Shown here in pieces: positions 6,901 through 24,353 of a DNA stretch of 29,501 bases. This DNA comes from a virus, in IMG/VR virus record IMGVR_UViG_3300025645_000325, positions 1 to 29,501 of that record; one strand, written 5' to 3'. The position numbers were made by a program, and so were the translations under genes. The notes beneath the pieces are model-generated. The model saw only the letters and a program-made list of their open reading frames with translations. It was not told the DNA's origin and searched no databases. Position 1 is the first letter of the stretch. Every line of letters begins with the position of its first letter.

Positions 6901-8668
6901 AGGTATTGATAAAGGTACAGCAGCAGAAAGAAAAGTATTTAAAAAAATAACATCTTACGAAGGACAAACAGGTGGCATTAACGATATAAAAATACTAGAC
7001 AAAGCTGCAGCATCATTTTCTTTAGGAGAAACTAAAAAACTTCTTTATGATGTGACTACTAGAACAAGATTAGGTAACTCTACTAGAGCATTGTTTCCTT
7101 TCGGTGAAGCATTCGTAGAAATATTTACAACTTGGGGAAGAATTGTTAGACAAGAAAGAGGTAGGCCTTTAAGAAGAGCACAACAAATAATTCAATCAGG
7201 TAGAAAAGAAGGTGCAAAGTTTGAAGATGATGACCAGAAAGGTTTCTTTTATCGTGACCCACTTACTCAACAAGAAATGTTTAATTACCCAGGACCTGGT
7301 TTGATTAGGAAATGGATGTTTAAAGATTTAGAAGAAAATGGTGTAAAAGTTAATATGCCTGTTTACCTGCAATCTGTTAACTTAGCAGCTAATGTAATAC
7401 CTGGATTTGGTCCAACTATTACAGTACCTGCAGCATTTTTAAATGAAAAATTTAAAGTATTTAAACCAGAAGGTATTGCACAGTTTATATTGTTTGGTGA
7501 TTTTTCAGCACCTAGAGCTGGTACTCCTGGTGAAATAGCTACAGCTTTAACTCCTTTTCCTAGTTACTTAAGAAAATTTGCTACAGCATTTACACAAAAT
7601 ACTGATGAAACAAAAAGAATGTTTAACAATACAACTATTGAAGTGTACAAAGCATTACTATTAACCGAACAAGCATCAGATGAGTCACCAGCACAAGCAC
7701 AAAAAGCATTAGACCTTGCTGCCGAATATGCTAAAGAAATAATAATGTTTAGAGCGTTTGCACAATGGGTAGGTCCAGCAGGTCCTGCATCTCCTAAATA
7801 TGAAATAACAGATAAGACTGGTAATTTCTTTTTATTTGAAACATTAGCTCAGGAATGGAGAGATATATCAAATGCAGCAGGTGATATAGATGAAGCTATG
7901 ACAGAGTTTACAGGTAGATTTGGATTTAATCCTATAACTATTGCAACAGCTAAAACAGAAACAATAAAGAAAAGACCAATTACTGCAGATGGTGCTGAAT
8001 GGGAAAGAAAAAACCCAGACCTAGTAGAAAAGTTTGATTTAACTTATGGGTTTTTAATTGATGAAACAGATGCAGAGTTTTCTTATGATGCTTATTGGAA
8101 TCAAATAGTAGAAGGTGAAAGAGCACCTAGGACACCTGAACAATGGCAAAGGGCTAAGAATATTCTTCTTGGTAACTTAGAGTTTGAGGCTTGGTTAATA
8201 AAAAATGATTTAGTTAATAAAACAGACAAGGTATCTACTGCTGCTAAAAGAAATAAAAAAGCAGATATAGCATCTAGATATTATGGATATGGACTATCAA
8301 TACCTGGTTCAACTAAGAAACCAGAGCTAGATGAAATAATTATGGAACTATATACTTGGTTTGACCCTGTAACTTATGAAATAATACCTGAATTAAAACA
8401 ACAACCTGTAGCACAAGCACTGGTAGAATATATTAAAGAAAGAGATAAAGTTATAGAGGTGACAACTAATATAGCAGGTAGCAGTTACTTACCTACTTCG
8501 TTTAGAACATCAGCTAAACTTGTATCTTTTAGAAAACATTTACGAAATGTTAAGGCTCAAATTGGTGTTAAATATCCAGAATCTAAGAGTTTACTAGAAG
8601 AAGTGTTTGAAAGAGAATTAAGAACAGAATACGAGGATGAAGAATTGCTAAAGGCGTTGAACGAATAA
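3992..8668 (+). CDS. Giant internal virion (ejection-type) protein
   Basis: At 1558 residues this is the largest gene in the window. No catalytic motif is recognised. It is mostly predicted helix, rich in Lys, Ala and Glu, with a few hydrophobic stretches (for example FDEVIEPGTKAYSFVTGTID at about 240-260, YYGGIFKPLVLLRPAWTLRV at about 611-630 and VNLAANVIPGFGPTITVPAA at about 1128-1148) that could interact with membrane. Size, helical character and location among structural genes of a phage without a tape-measure gene fit an internal core or ejection protein, the kind that leaves the head with the DNA in podoviruses. A fused polymerase or protease was considered but no signature was found. 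It overlaps its neighbours by one base on both sides. Confidence 0.7.
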   Translation: MSYSIFDSDIADDEEARQQQDKLNKPSMATKEMAQQAAAIANKYPTLPAGAVVGAARLNISPDDPRLKQIVIQDSIIKEEEGFGAVKTATNFAKEKAKSGLRGLFLGFQSAWEEGLPEKVRYLEARQQGMSHEEAKAASETELFKAGITGKGDLGDGLFLGSTDPTTTDEYKNLVESGVSPVDARQFVLDNILGPQIYEEQRLKAETGVQFQGDRRAKFEAAGVAPTVTIGRWLFKPFDEVIEPGTKAYSFVTGTIDLLAQIFADPTALVTLGLSKVGKLGKTFTNLQDMKKFESSGLIGAARKSIHGPTTKQFLAGDEGLVFKKFLWENAENGQVIVKQSNEQITDKKFLDELRKIKRDNPNAKFEDVDKELTTFVDGYLSNQLITEGMLPKIVSRKNRLTKMMDKTYGARMITANVDESLVQMTRLLNLATDQLDADAAQQLSSKYFNKTLDALGSDDAPTEVVNVLVEFFQKDFKNPIVKNFGGKINKDGSISGLSEFQVNLIERGTNVMGKFYADGDMAKTAGRKYSNFDLPFSGLLKTILKKKGKSLDEEALLMNPLTVTQLADEIYLPNPTDLLRVGKALDTKLGPIGSKAFAGESVDTVRRFMDFYYGGIFKPLVLLRPAWTLRVVMEEQIRLMASGTTNVIRHPIDTILRAFNRGPETQIGLLGSFDNNAYHISALTETAGTLSSIRRRYAGAGTWGTVDKGKNFNSWKNASFRNVLQAYFDPLSKELAAIQLLPAAKRATALRALKKNANKKGHYLNNHIKKVTGAKSHMFNGAGRQSDPGRKLADEFINYVNANLADIAGGSVSTKTAKGATAASSRWIQETGKPELLEFIARKDAVDDLAGLKNVDFEKYWRGELTNTEYDRITTKLRQNQEQIKKDFFEKYLDLLPKTAKAELFSDKRSINMANDFVDKAFDMLMSVPTNKLSRSVAFKANYWKKVGELAGFTNKQTLNKLIKQAKEAGIDKGTAAERKVFKKITSYEGQTGGINDIKILDKAAASFSLGETKKLLYDVTTRTRLGNSTRALFPFGEAFVEIFTTWGRIVRQERGRPLRRAQQIIQSGRKEGAKFEDDDQKGFFYRDPLTQQEMFNYPGPGLIRKWMFKDLEENGVKVNMPVYLQSVNLAANVIPGFGPTITVPAAFLNEKFKVFKPEGIAQFILFGDFSAPRAGTPGEIATALTPFPSYLRKFATAFTQNTDETKRMFNNTTIEVYKALLLTEQASDESPAQAQKALDLAAEYAKEIIMFRAFAQWVGPAGPASPKYEITDKTGNFFLFETLAQEWRDISNAAGDIDEAMTEFTGRFGFNPITIATAKTETIKKRPITADGAEWERKNPDLVEKFDLTYGFLIDETDAEFSYDAYWNQIVEGERAPRTPEQWQRAKNILLGNLEFEAWLIKNDLVNKTDKVSTAAKRNKKADIASRYYGYGLSIPGSTKKPELDEIIMELYTWFDPVTYEIIPELKQQPVAQALVEYIKERDKVIEVTTNIAGSSYLPTSFRTSAKLVSFRKHLRNVKAQIGVKYPESKSLLEEVFERELRTEYEDEELLKALNE

Positions 8669-9693
8669 TGGAAACATCAACATTTATAGATAGAATTGTT
8701 GAGATACTTAGGTATGTAAACTCACAACAACAAGCAGGAGAAAATCAACTTACTTTAACTCAAGAAGAATTTGAAACTATCAATACAGCAACAGATATAA
8801 ACACAGCATCAAGTTATTTATTAGCATATGGTGTACCTCAATATTTAGTTAACTTAGCATTAGATGAAAATGAATCAGTAGATTCTTTAGGTACATATGA
8901 TTTAAGTATGCAATCTGCCATAAATGAGTTTGGTATGGTACAACCAGGTTCTTCTCCAGTAGGTGTGACTGCAGGATATGTTAGCCCAAGAGGAGAATCA
9001 GCTACAGAGTACTACACAGAAAATGATTTAATAGATAACTTTGCTGGATTAGGTGAAGAAACAATAGCAGGTATTCAAGCACAATTAATAAATGCAGGTA
9101 TTTTAGAAACTGATGCTTCATTTATTGCTGGTGATTGGGGGCCTACTACACAAAGAGCTATGAGTTTTATTCTAGGAACAGTTAATAGAAGAGGTGTAAC
9201 AGAAGAAGAAAAGATTACTGGTGCAGCTTGGGAACAAGCATTAAACGAATATGAACTTAATCCACTTCCTAAGTACCCAGATAGTGCAGCTTATCTTCCA
9301 CCTGATTATGCAAGTGTATCTAACTCAATAGTAAGTATGTTTAGAAGAAGTGTTAATCGTGACCCACAACCTTATGAACTAAAATTATTAGCTAATACAT
9401 TGTATTCAGAATCGCAACAAGCCTATACTCAATCAGAAGATTTAGATAAAGAAACAAGACAACAAGATGTATCAGGAACTGGTTTACTTGCAGGTGAGTA
9501 CGGAAATTATTCAAAGGAAAATGTACAAGCTAAGATAGACAGTGAGGGCCTTACTGAGATAGACCCATTAGCAAGAACACAGTTTGGATTTAACAATATG
9601 ATACAAAACGAATTAGGAAGGTTAGGAGAAAATGCAGATACCAGGCGTACTAGGGCTAGTCTTTTCGCTTCTCTTAACCAACGGCCAAATTAA
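8668..9693 (+). CDS. Virion protein with peptidoglycan-binding-like repeat
   Basis: A 341-residue protein in the internal virion block. Residues about 122-170 resemble a PG_binding_1 module: a helix with a Gln/Leu pattern (TIAGIQAQLINAGIL) followed by GDWGPTTQRAMSFI, which matches the family's G-x-x-G-x-x-T-x-x-A-[VM]-x-x-[FM] turn and helix. A second segment (SMFRRSVNRDPQPYELKLLA, from about 222) looks like a repeated helical hairpin. The gene immediately downstream encodes a transglycosylase, so the two probably work together in local cell-wall penetration at infection. The match is by eye and the module is diverged. Confidence 0.6.
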   Translation: METSTFIDRIVEILRYVNSQQQAGENQLTLTQEEFETINTATDINTASSYLLAYGVPQYLVNLALDENESVDSLGTYDLSMQSAINEFGMVQPGSSPVGVTAGYVSPRGESATEYYTENDLIDNFAGLGEETIAGIQAQLINAGILETDASFIAGDWGPTTQRAMSFILGTVNRRGVTEEEKITGAAWEQALNEYELNPLPKYPDSAAYLPPDYASVSNSIVSMFRRSVNRDPQPYELKLLANTLYSESQQAYTQSEDLDKETRQQDVSGTGLLAGEYGNYSKENVQAKIDSEGLTEIDPLARTQFGFNNMIQNELGRLGENADTRRTRASLFASLNQRPN

Positions 9694-14065: not shown

Positions 14066-15004
14066 ATGGGTGCAGTATCAGGATTGGGAGATTCGTATGA
14101 CCTCCCTAATTTCGTGGGTGAGTTATTTAATATAACTCCAAATGATACACCTTTCCTTTCTGCGATTGGTGGAATGACTGGAGGTAAATCAGTTACCTCT
14201 AAGCAATTCACCTGGCAAACAGTTGACAATGCAACAGCAGCACAAACAGTGGTTGCTGAAGGTGCAGATGCAACTTTCGCAGAAAGAAGCAGAAGCGAAG
14301 TAACAAATGTTACTCAAATTATGCAATATGGTGTACACGTTTCCTACACAAAACAAGCTGCAACAGGTAACCTTAACGGAGAATCTATTATTGGAAATCA
14401 GCCAGTTCAAGATGAATTGTCTTTCCAATTAGATATGGCTATGAAAAGAGCAGCCAGAGATATTGAGTTCTCTTTCCTAAGAGGTTCATATGTTGCCGAC
14501 ACAAATGTAGGAACAGCAAGAAAAACAAGAGGTATGTTATCAGCTATTTCAACTAATGAAGTAGCAGGTGGTAACGCAGCTCTTGACCAAGCAAAAGTAA
14601 ATGCTTTGATGAAGGCTATGGCAGATTCAGGAGCTCCATTTGAGCAACCTGTAATTATGGCTAACGCTTTCCAAAAGCAAAAACTATCTTCAATTTATTC
14701 AAGTGCTTTAGCACTTGCACCAAGAGATAGAAACTATGGTGGTGTTAATATCAACACTATAGAAACTGACTTTGGTGAAGTAGGTATTGTCTATAGCAGA
14801 CACTTACCTGCTGAAGATTTAATTTGCGTTGACCTTGCATATTGTAAGCCTGTATTCTTAGACATCCCTGGAAAAGGACACTTCTTCGCAGAACCACTTG
14901 CACAAACTGGTTCAGCTTATAAGTTCCAAATCTATGGAGAAGTCGGATTAGAATATGGTCCAGAGCAATTCCACGGCAAAATTACATCATTATCAACTTC
15001 CTAA
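14066..15004 (+). CDS. Major capsid protein (SU10/DUF5309-like, HK97 fold)
   Basis: A 312-residue protein that forms the icosahedral shell. The N-terminus (SYDLPNFVGELF at residues 10-21, then DTPFLSAIGGMTGGK) is characteristic of the SU10-type DUF5309 capsid family. The body continues with the QTVVAEGADATFAERSRSEVTNVTQI segment, the helix FQLDMAMKRAARDIEFSFLRG, and a C-terminal VDLAYCKPVFLDIPG strand region. Codon use here includes more C-ending codons (TTC, AAC) than the neighbouring genes, as expected of a highly expressed gene. A strong AAGGAG ribosome-binding site precedes the ATG. A 10-bp hairpin follows its stop, which may stabilise this abundant message. Confidence 0.92.
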   Translation: MGAVSGLGDSYDLPNFVGELFNITPNDTPFLSAIGGMTGGKSVTSKQFTWQTVDNATAAQTVVAEGADATFAERSRSEVTNVTQIMQYGVHVSYTKQAATGNLNGESIIGNQPVQDELSFQLDMAMKRAARDIEFSFLRGSYVADTNVGTARKTRGMLSAISTNEVAGGNAALDQAKVNALMKAMADSGAPFEQPVIMANAFQKQKLSSIYSSALALAPRDRNYGGVNINTIETDFGEVGIVYSRHLPAEDLICVDLAYCKPVFLDIPGKGHFFAEPLAQTGSAYKFQIYGEVGLEYGPEQFHGKITSLSTS

Positions 15005-20991: not shown

Positions 20992-21098
20992 TGGAAGATG
21001 ACTTCGTACTTCCAGAAGATATGTTTACAGACAACCCAGAGTTTGTAGATACCTCAAAAGAATTTGATGATGACTGTGGAGATGCGTGTAAGATATGA
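20991..21098 (+). CDS. Tiny acidic peptide with two cysteines
   Basis: A 35-residue, very acidic peptide (MEDDFVLPEDMFTDNPEFVD, then a C-terminus DDDCGDACKI with a CxxxC pair). It overlaps its neighbours at both ends (TAATG upstream, ATGA downstream), which supports a real coding sequence despite its size. No function is recognised. The CxxxC pair next to other Cys-rich peptides in the same cassette (23382-23485) may not be chance. Confidence 0.5.
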   Translation: MEDDFVLPEDMFTDNPEFVDTSKEFDDDCGDACKI

Positions 21099-23191
21099 GA
21101 AAGTTACTATGTTTAGTAGCAGCAGTAACACTACTTGTACCAGTCGTATCAATAGCAGAAGAAACTACAGTTACAGAAAACTTTAATAACCAACAAATAA
21201 ATACAGACATAGAGTTTATATATGGTGGTAATGACACAGTTGTAAGTGCAGCCACTACACAACATCCTGACTGTGCAAGTACAGAAACAGCAGGAAGTAT
21301 AGGTTTAGAAGATTTAGATTGTTTTGGTTCTATGTACTTTGGAACTGATAGATACCAACTAGGTATTCGTGCTAGTGCTGATACATTAACTATTGCTTTT
21401 CCTAATTCAGATAGTAAACCTATTACAGAAGTAGGTTTTGTTGTTAACGCTAGAGAGACTACAGGTACAGCAACTGTGTACTTTGATGACTCAACAACAC
21501 AGACAATTAATTTTATAGACCAACAAAGTGAAACTAATCAAACTACAAGTATAACCATTACTGCACCAACAGGTACAACTGTTAATGAAATACAAATACC
21601 AGGAGTTACTTCAGGTAATGACTGGTGGCTCATAGATAATGTATACTATAAGTATGATAATGTATCTACTCCAACGACATCTAGTACGACAACAACAACT
21701 ACCACCACAACAACGACAACGCTACCTGAGGCGAAAGATGTTGTTGAAGATGGTAACACAACCTATCTTGCGTGGGATGAATATGGTTGCGAACATCCGA
21801 ACAATCCCTTATCGTTTAAAGAATACCTGGAAGCAGTAGAAAGTGGATATTGGTTTGGTTATCAAGATGGTGATTGCTCTGACATACCTGATATTATTAC
21901 TATCATTGTCGCACCAGAAGAAGAGGAGTTAGAAGAAGATGAAATACTTGAAGAGGTTATATTGGTGGATGGACCTGAAGATTTGGAACTTACAGAGGAA
22001 GATTTCGTTGAGGAACTTACAGAAGAAGAGATAGCTGCAATAGAAGAAGAGATTAAAGCAGAAGAAGAACGGCTGATTCAAGAACAAATTGAGTTAGAAG
22101 AAGAAGCAGAAATACTTTTAGAGTTAGAAGAAACTATAAACTTAGAAGATATAGGACTACTTATACTTGAATGTCCTGAAGAAGAAATAGAATGTGTTGA
22201 TTTAACTGAAGAAGAAATAGCAGAAATAGAATTAGAACTACAAGAATTTATAGATGTCATACAAGAGTTAGAAGAACTAAACCTTGAAGAAGAATTTATT
22301 ATAGTTGAAGAAGAAATTATATTAGATATACCTGATGATATAATAGTTATCCAAATAGAAGAGGAAGAAGTTGAAGAAGAAATTATTATTGATAAGACCG
22401 AAGTTTTACCTGAGGTTAATGAGGAGATTTTGGTTGAGCCAATACAGGAAGATGTTGAAGAAGAACCTGTAGATATTATAGAATCTATAACTGATATATT
22501 TAATGTAGAAGAAGTTGTAGAACTAACTGAAGAGGAACTACAAGTAGAAGTTGCTGAGATAGAAGAAGTTATTGTTATAGAGATAGAGATAGCAACTGAA
22601 GAAGAGATAGAAGAATTTACGGAAGAGGAGTTAGTTGAGTATGAAGAAGCAAAAGAAGAAGCTATACAAGAGTATGTACAAGAGCTTACCAACGAAGAAG
22701 CATCAGAGGTCCTAGAAGAAGTTAATGATATTGGTGTTCAGAACTTAGACCAGGTATCAGAAGAAGTACAAGAGATAGTTCAAGCAGTAGTTGAAGAAGC
22801 TATTGAAGAGATAGAAGAACTTACAGAGGAACAAGTAGAAGTTGTTGCTGAAGTATTACAAATAGAAACAGAAGATGTTGAGATAATAGCTGAAGCTGTC
22901 AAAGAAGATGAAGTCGTAGCTGAAGCAGTAGAAGAATATGTAGAGAGAGCTGTAGAGAACGCAGATGTAGAGAACTATACTCTTGCTGATGTTGTTACAG
23001 AGGTAGCTTTCGAATCATTTATAGAAAATCCTATAGAAACATTTGTAGATATAGAAATACAAGATATAAACCTTTCAACTATTGGTGATGATATGACATC
23101 AGACCAAAAAGAAAAAGCACAAGAAGTGGTAGTCCCAGTTATTCTTACTAGAATAGTTAGTATGGCTGCCTTTATATTTAGGAGAAGTTAA
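21095..23191 (+). CDS. Secreted surface-like protein with poly-Thr linker and Glu-rich domain
   Basis: A 698-residue protein with a Sec signal peptide (MRKLLCLVAAVTLLVPVVSIA, cleavage expected after Ala21). Residues 25-185 are beta-rich and resemble a jelly-roll or lectin-like domain (TLTIAFPNSDSKPITEVGFV; NDWWLIDNVYY near the end). Residues about 190-210 are a Ser/Thr linker with twelve consecutive Thr, followed by a small Cys/Trp domain (YGCEHPNNPLSF, GYWFGYQDGDCSD). About 400 residues from 273 on are dominated by Glu, Ile, Val and Leu with recurring LTEEE[IL] units. The C-terminus has a hydrophobic stretch and basic end (VVPVILTRIVSMAAFIFRRS), like a membrane or wall-retention tail without LPXTG. 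It overlaps the previous gene by ATGA. The linker and acidic repeats look like actinobacterial cell-surface proteins, so host origin is possible. Function unknown: host-surface modification, superinfection exclusion or release. Confidence 0.75.
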   Translation: MRKLLCLVAAVTLLVPVVSIAEETTVTENFNNQQINTDIEFIYGGNDTVVSAATTQHPDCASTETAGSIGLEDLDCFGSMYFGTDRYQLGIRASADTLTIAFPNSDSKPITEVGFVVNARETTGTATVYFDDSTTQTINFIDQQSETNQTTSITITAPTGTTVNEIQIPGVTSGNDWWLIDNVYYKYDNVSTPTTSSTTTTTTTTTTTTLPEAKDVVEDGNTTYLAWDEYGCEHPNNPLSFKEYLEAVESGYWFGYQDGDCSDIPDIITIIVAPEEEELEEDEILEEVILVDGPEDLELTEEDFVEELTEEEIAAIEEEIKAEEERLIQEQIELEEEAEILLELEETINLEDIGLLILECPEEEIECVDLTEEEIAEIELELQEFIDVIQELEELNLEEEFIIVEEEIILDIPDDIIVIQIEEEEVEEEIIIDKTEVLPEVNEEILVEPIQEDVEEEPVDIIESITDIFNVEEVVELTEEELQVEVAEIEEVIVIEIEIATEEEIEEFTEEELVEYEEAKEEAIQEYVQELTNEEASEVLEEVNDIGVQNLDQVSEEVQEIVQAVVEEAIEEIEELTEEQVEVVAEVLQIETEDVEIIAEAVKEDEVVAEAVEEYVERAVENADVENYTLADVVTEVAFESFIENPIETFVDIEIQDINLSTIGDDMTSDQKEKAQEVVVPVILTRIVSMAAFIFRRS

Positions 23192-23380
23192 GTGATTAAG
23201 AAGTTATGGTCTTGGTTAGTAACAATAATTAAAGAAACACTAAACCTTAGTTGGACTTTGGTTGGTTTAGTTATTGCTACGCTTACACTAACTGGTTCTG
23301 CACAACAAGTGACAGGATTAGCCACTGTAATTACACTAGCTATATGGTTGTTAACCATTGGTTTTAGAAAAGGAGAATAG
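23192..23380 (+). CDS. Two-helix holin-like membrane protein (GTG start)
   Basis: A 62-residue protein with two predicted transmembrane helices (about 16-35 SLNLSWTLVGLVIATLTLTG-like and 42-57 LATVITLAIWLLTIGF) and basic ends (MIKK; RKGE). It starts with GTG directly after the preceding stop, with AGGAGA upstream. The layout is that of a class II holin or a pinholin/antiholin, and it sits in the lysis region that also contains an r1t-like holin at 24072-24353. Which of the two sets lysis timing cannot be read from sequence. Confidence 0.6.
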   Translation: MIKKLWSWLVTIIKETLNLSWTLVGLVIATLTLTGSAQQVTGLATVITLAIWLLTIGFRKGE

Positions 23381-23381
23381 T

Positions 23382-23420
23382 ATGGACTGCTGTGGTAGTG
23401 GTTGCTGTGGTGGTAAGTAG
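23382..23420 (+). CDS. 12-residue tetracysteine micropeptide
   Basis: MDCCGSGCCGGK, encoded one base after the previous stop and served by AGGAGA with five bases of spacing, one of the better ribosome-binding sites in the region. Two CC pairs separated by GSG make a compact soft-metal or redox-active ligand set. The stop is TAG; the same frame beyond it reads a hydrophobic segment (see findings). It is far too short for homology-based annotation, so the call rests on the ribosome-binding site, spacing and composition. Confidence 0.45.
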   Translation: MDCCGSGCCGGK

Positions 23421-23485
23421 TGTGTAGATGTAATTACCTTTGTTGTGGTTGCAGTTTGCATTGTTATAATTGGAGGGATAAATGA
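23420..23485 (+). CDS. Possible 21-residue Cys-rich peptide (GTG start)
   Basis: A GTG overlapping the TAG of the 12-residue peptide opens a 22-codon frame that ends in a TGA overlapping the next ATG (ATGA). The product has Cys at 2, 4, 8, 9, 11 and 15 (MCRCNYLCCGCSLHC...). Coupling at both ends and six Cys in 21 residues argue for it. The GTG start and the competing hydrophobic frame through the same bases argue against. Confidence 0.3.
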   Translation: MCRCNYLCCGCSLHCYNWRDK

Positions 23486-24072
23486 AATTACAAGTAGTTA
23501 GAACACAATTTGGAACAGATGCAACTAATGGAATACTGTTAGTTGATGGTCTGTTTGAGTGTTATACATTAGAAGACCAGTATCAAGCAGTAAAAGTTAT
23601 GCACGAAACCTGCATACCAGAGGGTACATACAATATAAAATTTAGAACTGTTGGTGGATTTCATACTAAGTATTCAGAGAGATATGGTAACTCACATAAA
23701 GGTATGTTGCACTTACAAGATGTACCTAACTTTACTTACATTCTTATACACGCAGGTAACACCGATGAGCATACCTCGGGTTGTTTAATTGTAGGAGAAA
23801 CACAACAAGACTTAGACCTTAGTGATGATGGATTTATAGGACATTCAGGCAAGGCGTATCTAAAACTTTACAACAAAGTGGCAAAAGCATTACTAAATCT
23901 TGATGATGTAACCATAGAGTACACAACTATAACTAAATTATTAGAGAAACCTGCATCAAATGCTTCTAGTGATGATGTTGTATTAGCTAGAACAGTCTTA
24001 GAAAAACTAGAAGAAGTCAATGGTAATGTCTTAGTAGGTAACGCTATGTTGAAAGGCAGGTTAATAAGATAA
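23482..24072 (+). CDS. DUF5675-like protein (endolysin or L,D-transpeptidase-like)
   Basis: A 196-residue protein matching the DUF5675 pattern found in many phage lysis regions: CIPEGTYNIKF at 44-54, a GGFHTKYSERYGNSH segment at 58-72, LHLQDVP at 76-82, and ILIHAGNTDEHTSGCLIVG at 87-105. The His90 to Ser99-Gly-Cys101 arrangement resembles the catalytic His and SxGC of YkuD-type L,D-transpeptidases, so action on cell-wall peptides is plausible. The C-terminal 60 residues are a helical extension. The ribosome-binding site GGAGGG precedes the ATG; the stop overlaps the holin start (TAATG). No other classical endolysin is visible in the lysis region, so this may fill that role. Confidence 0.68.
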   Translation: MKLQVVRTQFGTDATNGILLVDGLFECYTLEDQYQAVKVMHETCIPEGTYNIKFRTVGGFHTKYSERYGNSHKGMLHLQDVPNFTYILIHAGNTDEHTSGCLIVGETQQDLDLSDDGFIGHSGKAYLKLYNKVAKALLNLDDVTIEYTTITKLLEKPASNASSDDVVLARTVLEKLEEVNGNVLVGNAMLKGRLIR

Positions 24073-24353
24073 TGTTTGATAGAATAAAGAGAGCAAGAAA
24101 CCAGGATGGTACATTTAAAAAAGATGTATGGTGGACACCTTGGTCTGATTCGTGGGAGTATAGAATGAGTGAAGAACTCAAAGATATGATTGAGCGTACA
24201 GCTTGGACCTTCATTGAAGCGTTCATAGGTGCATTAACAGTTGCTCCATTAGTTGGTGTAGAAGCTGAAACACTTCAGTTAGCTGCATTAGCCGGTGGCG
24301 GTGCTGCACTTGCAGTCATTAAAACATACGCTAAAAAACAAATTACTAAGTAA
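24072..24353 (+). CDS. r1t-like holin
   Basis: A 93-residue membrane protein. The second half (RTAWTFIEAFIGALTV, GVEAETLQLAALAGGGAALAVIKTYAKKQ) follows the pattern of the Holin_r1t family common in actinobacterial phages: Arg-Thr-[AF]-x-x-F helix, short turn, Ala/Gly-rich second helix, basic C-terminus. The first 40 residues are soluble and Trp-rich (VWWTPWSDSWEYRM). It would form the membrane lesions that let the cell-wall enzyme out or collapse the potential. It overlaps the preceding gene by one base and is the last gene before a promoter-like gap. Confidence 0.78.
   Translation: MFDRIKRARNQDGTFKKDVWWTPWSDSWEYRMSEELKDMIERTAWTFIEAFIGALTVAPLVGVEAETLQLAALAGGGAALAVIKTYAKKQITK

Follow-up and report, generated by a model that had tools for sequence, protein, structure and literature searches.

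A tetracysteine gene of twelve codons embedded in phage late-gene operons and its possible role in metal binding

The tetracysteine micropeptide gene lies between a gene for a holin-like protein and a DUF5675 gene in the window, by which we mean the whole stretch of DNA analysed, a virus record of 29.5 kb. The features of the locus are listed below, with the evidence on which each one was placed given in brackets.

23192..23380, + strand: upstream neighbour, a 62-aa holin-like membrane protein (hydrophobic, adjoins a putative peptidoglycan enzyme)
23370..23375, + strand: Shine-Dalgarno-like AAGGAG of the 12-mer, within the 3' end of the holin-like gene (sequence)
23382..23420, + strand: tetracysteine micropeptide gene of 12 aa, MDCCGSGCCGGK and its stop, also written ATGGACTGCTGTGGTAGTGGTTGCTGTGGTGGTAAGTAG (pN/pS, family conservation)
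23420..23485, + strand: second Cys-rich micropeptide gene (class B), 21 aa with a GTG start, VCRCNYLCCGCSLHCYNWRDK and its stop (pN/pS, no stops)
23421..23501, + strand: transmembrane-like frame past the TAG, CVDVITFVVVAVCIVIIGGINEITSS and its stop, judged not to be a gene (pN/pS, simulation, stops in relatives)
23482..24072, + strand: downstream neighbour, a DUF5675 protein with an HxGN...SGCL motif (PF18925, E 3e-30)

The AAGGAG is separated from the ATG of the 12-mer by 6 nt, and the last G of its TAG stop is the first G of the GTG at 23420, forming a TAGTG overlap. Cysteine accounts for 33% of the 12-mer (4 of 12 residues) versus 0.39% in the large ORFs of the window. The CC-GxG-CC motif has a single occurrence there, and 100 shuffles produced none. 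The 62-aa upstream protein, presumably a holin, had no match in Pfam and no match in PHROG. In the downstream protein the HxGN...SGCL motif is YkuD-like and suggests a catalytic cysteine; one phage relative (n=1) is annotated as an L,D-carboxypeptidase/transpeptidase. The surroundings also include a 93-aa protein at 24072-24353, possibly a second holin, whose match to the r1t holin family (E 0.03) is below threshold, and a 698-aa protein at 21095-23191 that combines a signal peptide-like start with a Thr tract and extended Glu-rich repeats and has a relative (L194) directly after the 12-mer in another virus.

To avoid a choice of sequences based on the motif, viral loci were first collected through the flanking proteins and the gap between the flanks was read. 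The 12-mer, or 13-residue forms beginning with MDN-, MGE- or MEN-, was present in 60 of the 84 distinct holin-DUF5675 gaps. Among 28 distinct 36-nt versions obtained in this way, compared pairwise and with shared ancestry uncorrected, the frame of the 12-mer showed a pN of 0.087 and a pS of 0.728 (pN/pS 0.12), while the other two frames gave pN/pS values of 2.22 and 0.36, the latter frame containing 31 stops. Synonymous change was near saturation in these relatives: the Cys and Gly codons alternate between TGT and TGC and among GGT, GGA, GGC and GGG with the residues unchanged, and all four Cys and five Gly were retained in 26 of the 28 variants. Strong variation was limited to position 6 (S, N, G or Q) and to the last residue. 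Since the codons switch synonymously while the residues stay, selection acts on the peptide. In roughly one in four of the relatives fetched by their neighbours, the holin-DUF5675 site lacks the 12-mer, and the gene is therefore not essential at that site.

A pattern scan of viral contigs and two narrower scans, of which the first two patterns specified neither the stop nor the start position, recovered at least 183 distinct copies of the family versus 26 chance pattern matches among the matches listed. The family consensus is M[DE]-CCG[N/S/G/Q/A]GCCGG-[KRNSE]-stop. In nearly all family copies among the matches listed, the first CC is reached 2-5 codons after the start, and the stop falls one codon past the final GG. 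The stops of the 183 listed copies are TAA in 152, TAG in 18 and TGA in 13. Ahead of the start, 135 of the 183 carry a Shine-Dalgarno core of 4 nt or more, a feature shared by 9% of all the ATGs that the window contains; of the 176 listed copies with an ORF upstream, 152 begin between -1 and +2 nt from the stop of that ORF, and 111 of the 183 overlap a possible next start codon (TARTG in 104, ATGA in 7). The three-residue spacing of CC-GxG-CC is found in all members; it was required by the scan pattern, and the neighbour-fetched members show the same spacing.

These data bear out the earlier note, which had described a genuine tetracysteine peptide with a good ribosome-binding site, and the 12-mer is almost certainly a real, selected peptide gene. 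The reading of it as a chance short ORF in a repeat resembling Cys and Gly codons, to which only the length of 39 nt and the simplicity of the TGYTGYGG repeat could be said to point, is contradicted by the conservation, by the Shine-Dalgarno and position statistics and by the shuffles; it is refuted by the substitution pattern and can practically be dismissed. The 12-mer is a phage gene that is selected independently, with its own ribosome-binding site, and is embedded in late-gene operons through stop-start overlaps.

The family was sought outside the viral contigs as well. When 85,000 species genomes of bacteria and archaea were scanned with the pattern extended by a K, R, S or N residue and a stop, four matches came up, none of them a micro-ORF. 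In an annotated phage collection the window had no DNA match, the holin and the coiled-coil protein had no match, and the padded 12-mer returned nothing, a weak search given the low-complexity masking of BLAST. A literature search whose scope did not extend to one relevant survey of small phage genes found no paper describing the 12-mer family. The family goes unannotated in hundreds of viral contigs because gene finders do not call genes of 12 codons.

The neighbours of the 12-mer change from virus to virus. Its commonest flanks, in the majority of cases, are a holin-like gene and then DUF5675. Other copies lie between a coiled-coil membrane protein and another coiled-coil protein, between a tail terminator (phrog_17840) and a major tail protein (phrog_9522), or between a small membrane protein and a secreted Thr-rich protein. 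Among 37 records tested, an SU10-type capsid protein was found in 17 and the major tail protein in 8 different ones, no record having both; records of both kinds carry the 12-mer, which thus occurs in virus lineages that are not related in their structural genes. In one major-tail-protein record the tail protein is located at 7991-8960, whereas the 12-mer, at 21112, lies about 12 kb away among lysis-like genes, with a coiled-coil membrane protein before it and MCKCKYLCCGCILHCNNYDQEIKR after it. All 28 records of 6-85 kb examined for copy number, which may be fragments, have one copy each, and in a separate set of 50 records 41 match, 40 of them with a single copy. The lone two-copy record (that of L115) has one 12-mer gene at each of its homologous contig ends (L399 and L400), which are 80-92% identical, and is probably a chimeric or wrapped assembly. 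As one copy per genome is kept while the neighbours change, the 12-mer most likely acts in trans.

The 60 bases that follow the 12-mer had been read in two ways in the earlier note, as a GTG-started peptide with six Cys coupled to both neighbours and as a transmembrane-like segment in the frame of the 12-mer. The overlaps of the GTG-started peptide were confirmed: besides the TAGTG at its start, its TGA (23483-23485) overlaps the ATG of DUF5675 (23482) as ATGA. Its GTG/ATG frame showed a pN/pS of 0.25 in 14 sequences and of 0.26 in 11 neighbour-fetched ones, with no stops, whereas the transmembrane-like frame gave 2.08 in the same 14 class B sequences and 2.41 in the 11. Comparison of substitution patterns across the frames, which the note had proposed, thus places the 12-mer and GTG frames under purifying selection and the transmembrane-like frame not. 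In relatives with the arrangement of the window the class B consensus is [V/M]C[RKMIN]CNYLCCGC[SNKE][LY]HC, and the motif M/V-C-x-C-N-Y-L-C-C-G-C-x-[LY]-H-C is conserved in relatives. Class B was also found at sites with no 12-mer directly upstream (L284, L286 and L287) and in a record bearing the major tail protein; the coupled 21-mer had no match in Pfam. The six-Cys GTG peptide is best explained as a second, optional member of the same Cys-rich micropeptide set as the 12-mer, its translation being coupled to that of the 12-mer and of DUF5675, an explanation that as a whole we put forward with some reserve.

The transmembrane-like segment did not survive as a gene. One-base shifts of TGY and GGN codons yield Val and Ala codons, and when the 21-mer of the window was back-translated with the codon usage of the window, the +1 frame scored as transmembrane-like in 93% of the back-translations versus 4% when random peptides of the window were used. 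The frame actually observed sits at the hydrophobic end of this simulation, where only 1.8% reach the same level. The transmembrane-like frame is a +1 frame-shift shadow of the class B Cys and Gly codons. Read-through of the TAG into a Cys-headed membrane miniprotein of 39 residues, a length that the note had counted correctly, draws on the 26 open codons that follow the TAG in this frame of the window and on their hydrophobic character. Against it stand the pN/pS above 2, the TAA or TGA stops of most family members listed, the interruption of the frame in most relatives that have another downstream ORF, and a hydrophobicity that codon shadowing predicts; there is neither a conserved leaky stop nor a selected downstream frame. 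The substitution pattern, the broken frames and the simulation leave both the segment and the read-through product unsupported, and we consider the latter very improbable.

For nearly all relatives of class B, folding predicts an RNA hairpin (at about 23417-23464 in the window) that precedes the ribosome-binding site of DUF5675. Two-sided changes were seen in none of its 17 pairs, the changes being one-sided only, and the shuffle control was uninformative; class A and tail-context relatives have a different sequence at this position. The class B hairpin may simply follow the codons. At the 12-mer locus no Rfam match and no terminator-like site were found.

Other Cys-rich mini-genes occur nearby. 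Class A, a second micropeptide with the pattern C-x(6-8)-G[TS]x[IV]x[IV]C[ND]xK-x-G (e.g. MCVTFVNDAGTYITICNGEYGGI), is unrelated to class B and fills its place in most other relatives. It was present in 54 of the 84 holin-DUF5675 gaps with a pN of 0.27, a pS of 0.67 and no stops, and is another unannotated conserved Cys mini-gene. It stands between the 12-mer and DUF5675 in L039, L007, L005 and others, and occurs without the 12-mer in L113 and L041. Further Cys-rich micropeptides, ...VDTSQEFxDDCGDxCKI and MICGLCSGSCATCPIGGL, each running to its stop, are located downstream of the 12-mer in L178, L214 and L234 and replace it in L002, L027 and L035. Additionally, small putative zinc-ribbon proteins (e.g. 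MKKSDPPCPVCNHTLMERHAGLYCYNYKCPQFNQKVVACCEGGQC) lie near the 12-mer in L401 and L402; these have weak Pfam matches, below cut-offs, to the DNA ligase zinc finger.

With regard to function, the composition of the 12-mer makes metal binding in trans a proposal on which we are about evenly divided, and the fuller reading, a free peptide made late in infection whose CC-GxG-CC thiols chelate a soft metal, is the one that we tentatively prefer. Under this reading the 12-mer would be made late and act in trans as a free peptide, and its four thiols, in a flexible CC-GxG-CC turn, would chelate a soft metal ion, on chemical grounds most likely zinc, with copper(I) or an iron-sulfur unit less probable. 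The result might be that metal or thiol chemistry is buffered in the dying cell, or that a small metal-held knob docks on a partner protein. Metal binding is favoured by the five Gly being as invariant as the Cys, by the absence of a CxxC redox motif and by the putative, sub-threshold zinc-ribbon neighbours. Four thiols within 12 residues could, on the other hand, equally form disulfides or dock on a protein.

The same conserved thiols would suit a redox peptide, in which the vicinal Cys pairs alternate between the dithiol and disulfide states or form mixed disulfides with a partner, shifting the thiol balance of late infection and possibly acting on the adjacent enzyme, whose YkuD-like motif suggests a catalytic Cys. 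We regard this as unlikely: the 12-mer is also kept beside tail genes with no adjacent DUF5675, it has no CxxC motif of the thioredoxin type, and a simple thiol buffer would not need five invariant Gly. The redox-gated lysis suggested in the earlier note is weakened because the same peptide also sits between tail genes, and lipid attachment, another of its suggestions, has no support, with no signal peptide or lipobox and only M-[DE] (1-4 residues in the longer variants) before the first Cys. A docking or inhibitor peptide, directed at some conserved protein of the host or the phage and imitating, for instance, a zinc knuckle or a SecA-like CCG tail, with the metal optional, agrees with the conserved acidic second residue, glycine frame and basic or small C-terminal residue, and the spread over unrelated phages suggests a common host target. 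Yet no structural or sequence relative was found, the padded 12-mer having no match in the PDB (weak, as the query is very short), and the SEC-C spacing is absent, so that we consider this explanation rather doubtful.

A device acting in cis, either a leader rich in Cys codons that senses the supply of Cys-tRNA or nothing more than a translational coupler to the following gene, would account for the listed copies that overlap a possible next start codon, and short polycysteine ORFs reportedly serve as attenuators in mycobacteria. It is disfavoured by the glycines, whose codons are as invariant in meaning as those of Cys while both vary synonymously, by downstream genes that differ widely, and by the lack of terminator-like sites, Rfam matches and conserved folding, which was near the shuffle level in five of six sequences. 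A single copy per record whatever the neighbour is also hard to reconcile with local regulation, and we hold a cis role to be improbable.

The preferred reading of the 12-mer as a metal-binding peptide has a bolder extension, which we offer as speculation with a minor chance of being right: the 12-residue tetrathiol would travel as a self-contained late gene among phages that are not related, by virtue of disabling a shared host target or stealing metal from it, and would head an interchangeable set of Cys-rich micropeptides (CC-GxG-CC, CNYLCCGC, GTxIxICNCKYG and others). If this is true, few conserved protein-coding genes known from viruses would be as small as the 12-mer. The major capsid protein (14066-15004) is nearest to Mycobacterium and Propionibacterium phages (44-48%; Mycobacterium 48%), a similarity that hints at an actinobacterial host; the tail protein is closest to Arthrobacter phages (32%) and the terminase is about 25% identical to that of Streptomyces phages. 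WhiB was not found in 26 records. The 12-mer is a clean case of a trans-acting micropeptide, in that its sequence is fixed, its copy usually single and its position variable, and thanks to its four thiols a synthetic peptide would allow direct tests of its biochemistry. Should it bind metal, the gene would be a natural metallopeptide gene of exceptionally small size and would offer a new handle on the management of metal or thiols by marine-type phages during cell killing.

Compared with known systems, the 12-mer belongs to none of the families tested. It shares with metallothioneins and other Cys-rich metal-thiolate peptides a content of one third Cys (4 of 12), two vicinal CC pairs, glycine spacers and the absence of aromatics. 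The resemblance appears to be one of composition only: unlike them it has 12 residues, 4 Cys and a fixed sequence, lies in phage operons and has no detectable homology, at a length too short for HMM searches, and its metal binding is a prediction. The SEC-C zinc motif is given as CxCx8C[C/H] (PMC6620043). The 12-mer has CGSG and CCG elements near its C-terminus as in SEC-C and the SecA C-terminal zinc motif, but by inspection its spacing is CC-x3-CC, and it is freestanding. Biarsenical tetracysteine tags (CCxxCC, e.g. CCPGCC) are likewise very short peptides with two CC pairs; their spacer has two residues instead of the three of GxG, and they are engineered tags rather than natural genes. Polycysteine short-ORF attenuators, reportedly leaderless and described in mycobacteria by Canestrari in 2020 (cited in PMC9094748), are like the 12-mer in being Cys-rich short ORFs tightly upstream of another gene, whereas the 12-mer has a conserved Shine-Dalgarno, invariant glycines, diverse and unrelated downstream genes, and no attenuator structure or terminator-like site. 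Finally, the 12-mer is comparable to the small phage genes that Fremin et al. in 2022 (cited in PMC11323111) are said to have predicted from global virome surveys, which are, like it, conserved tiny phage genes of unknown role.
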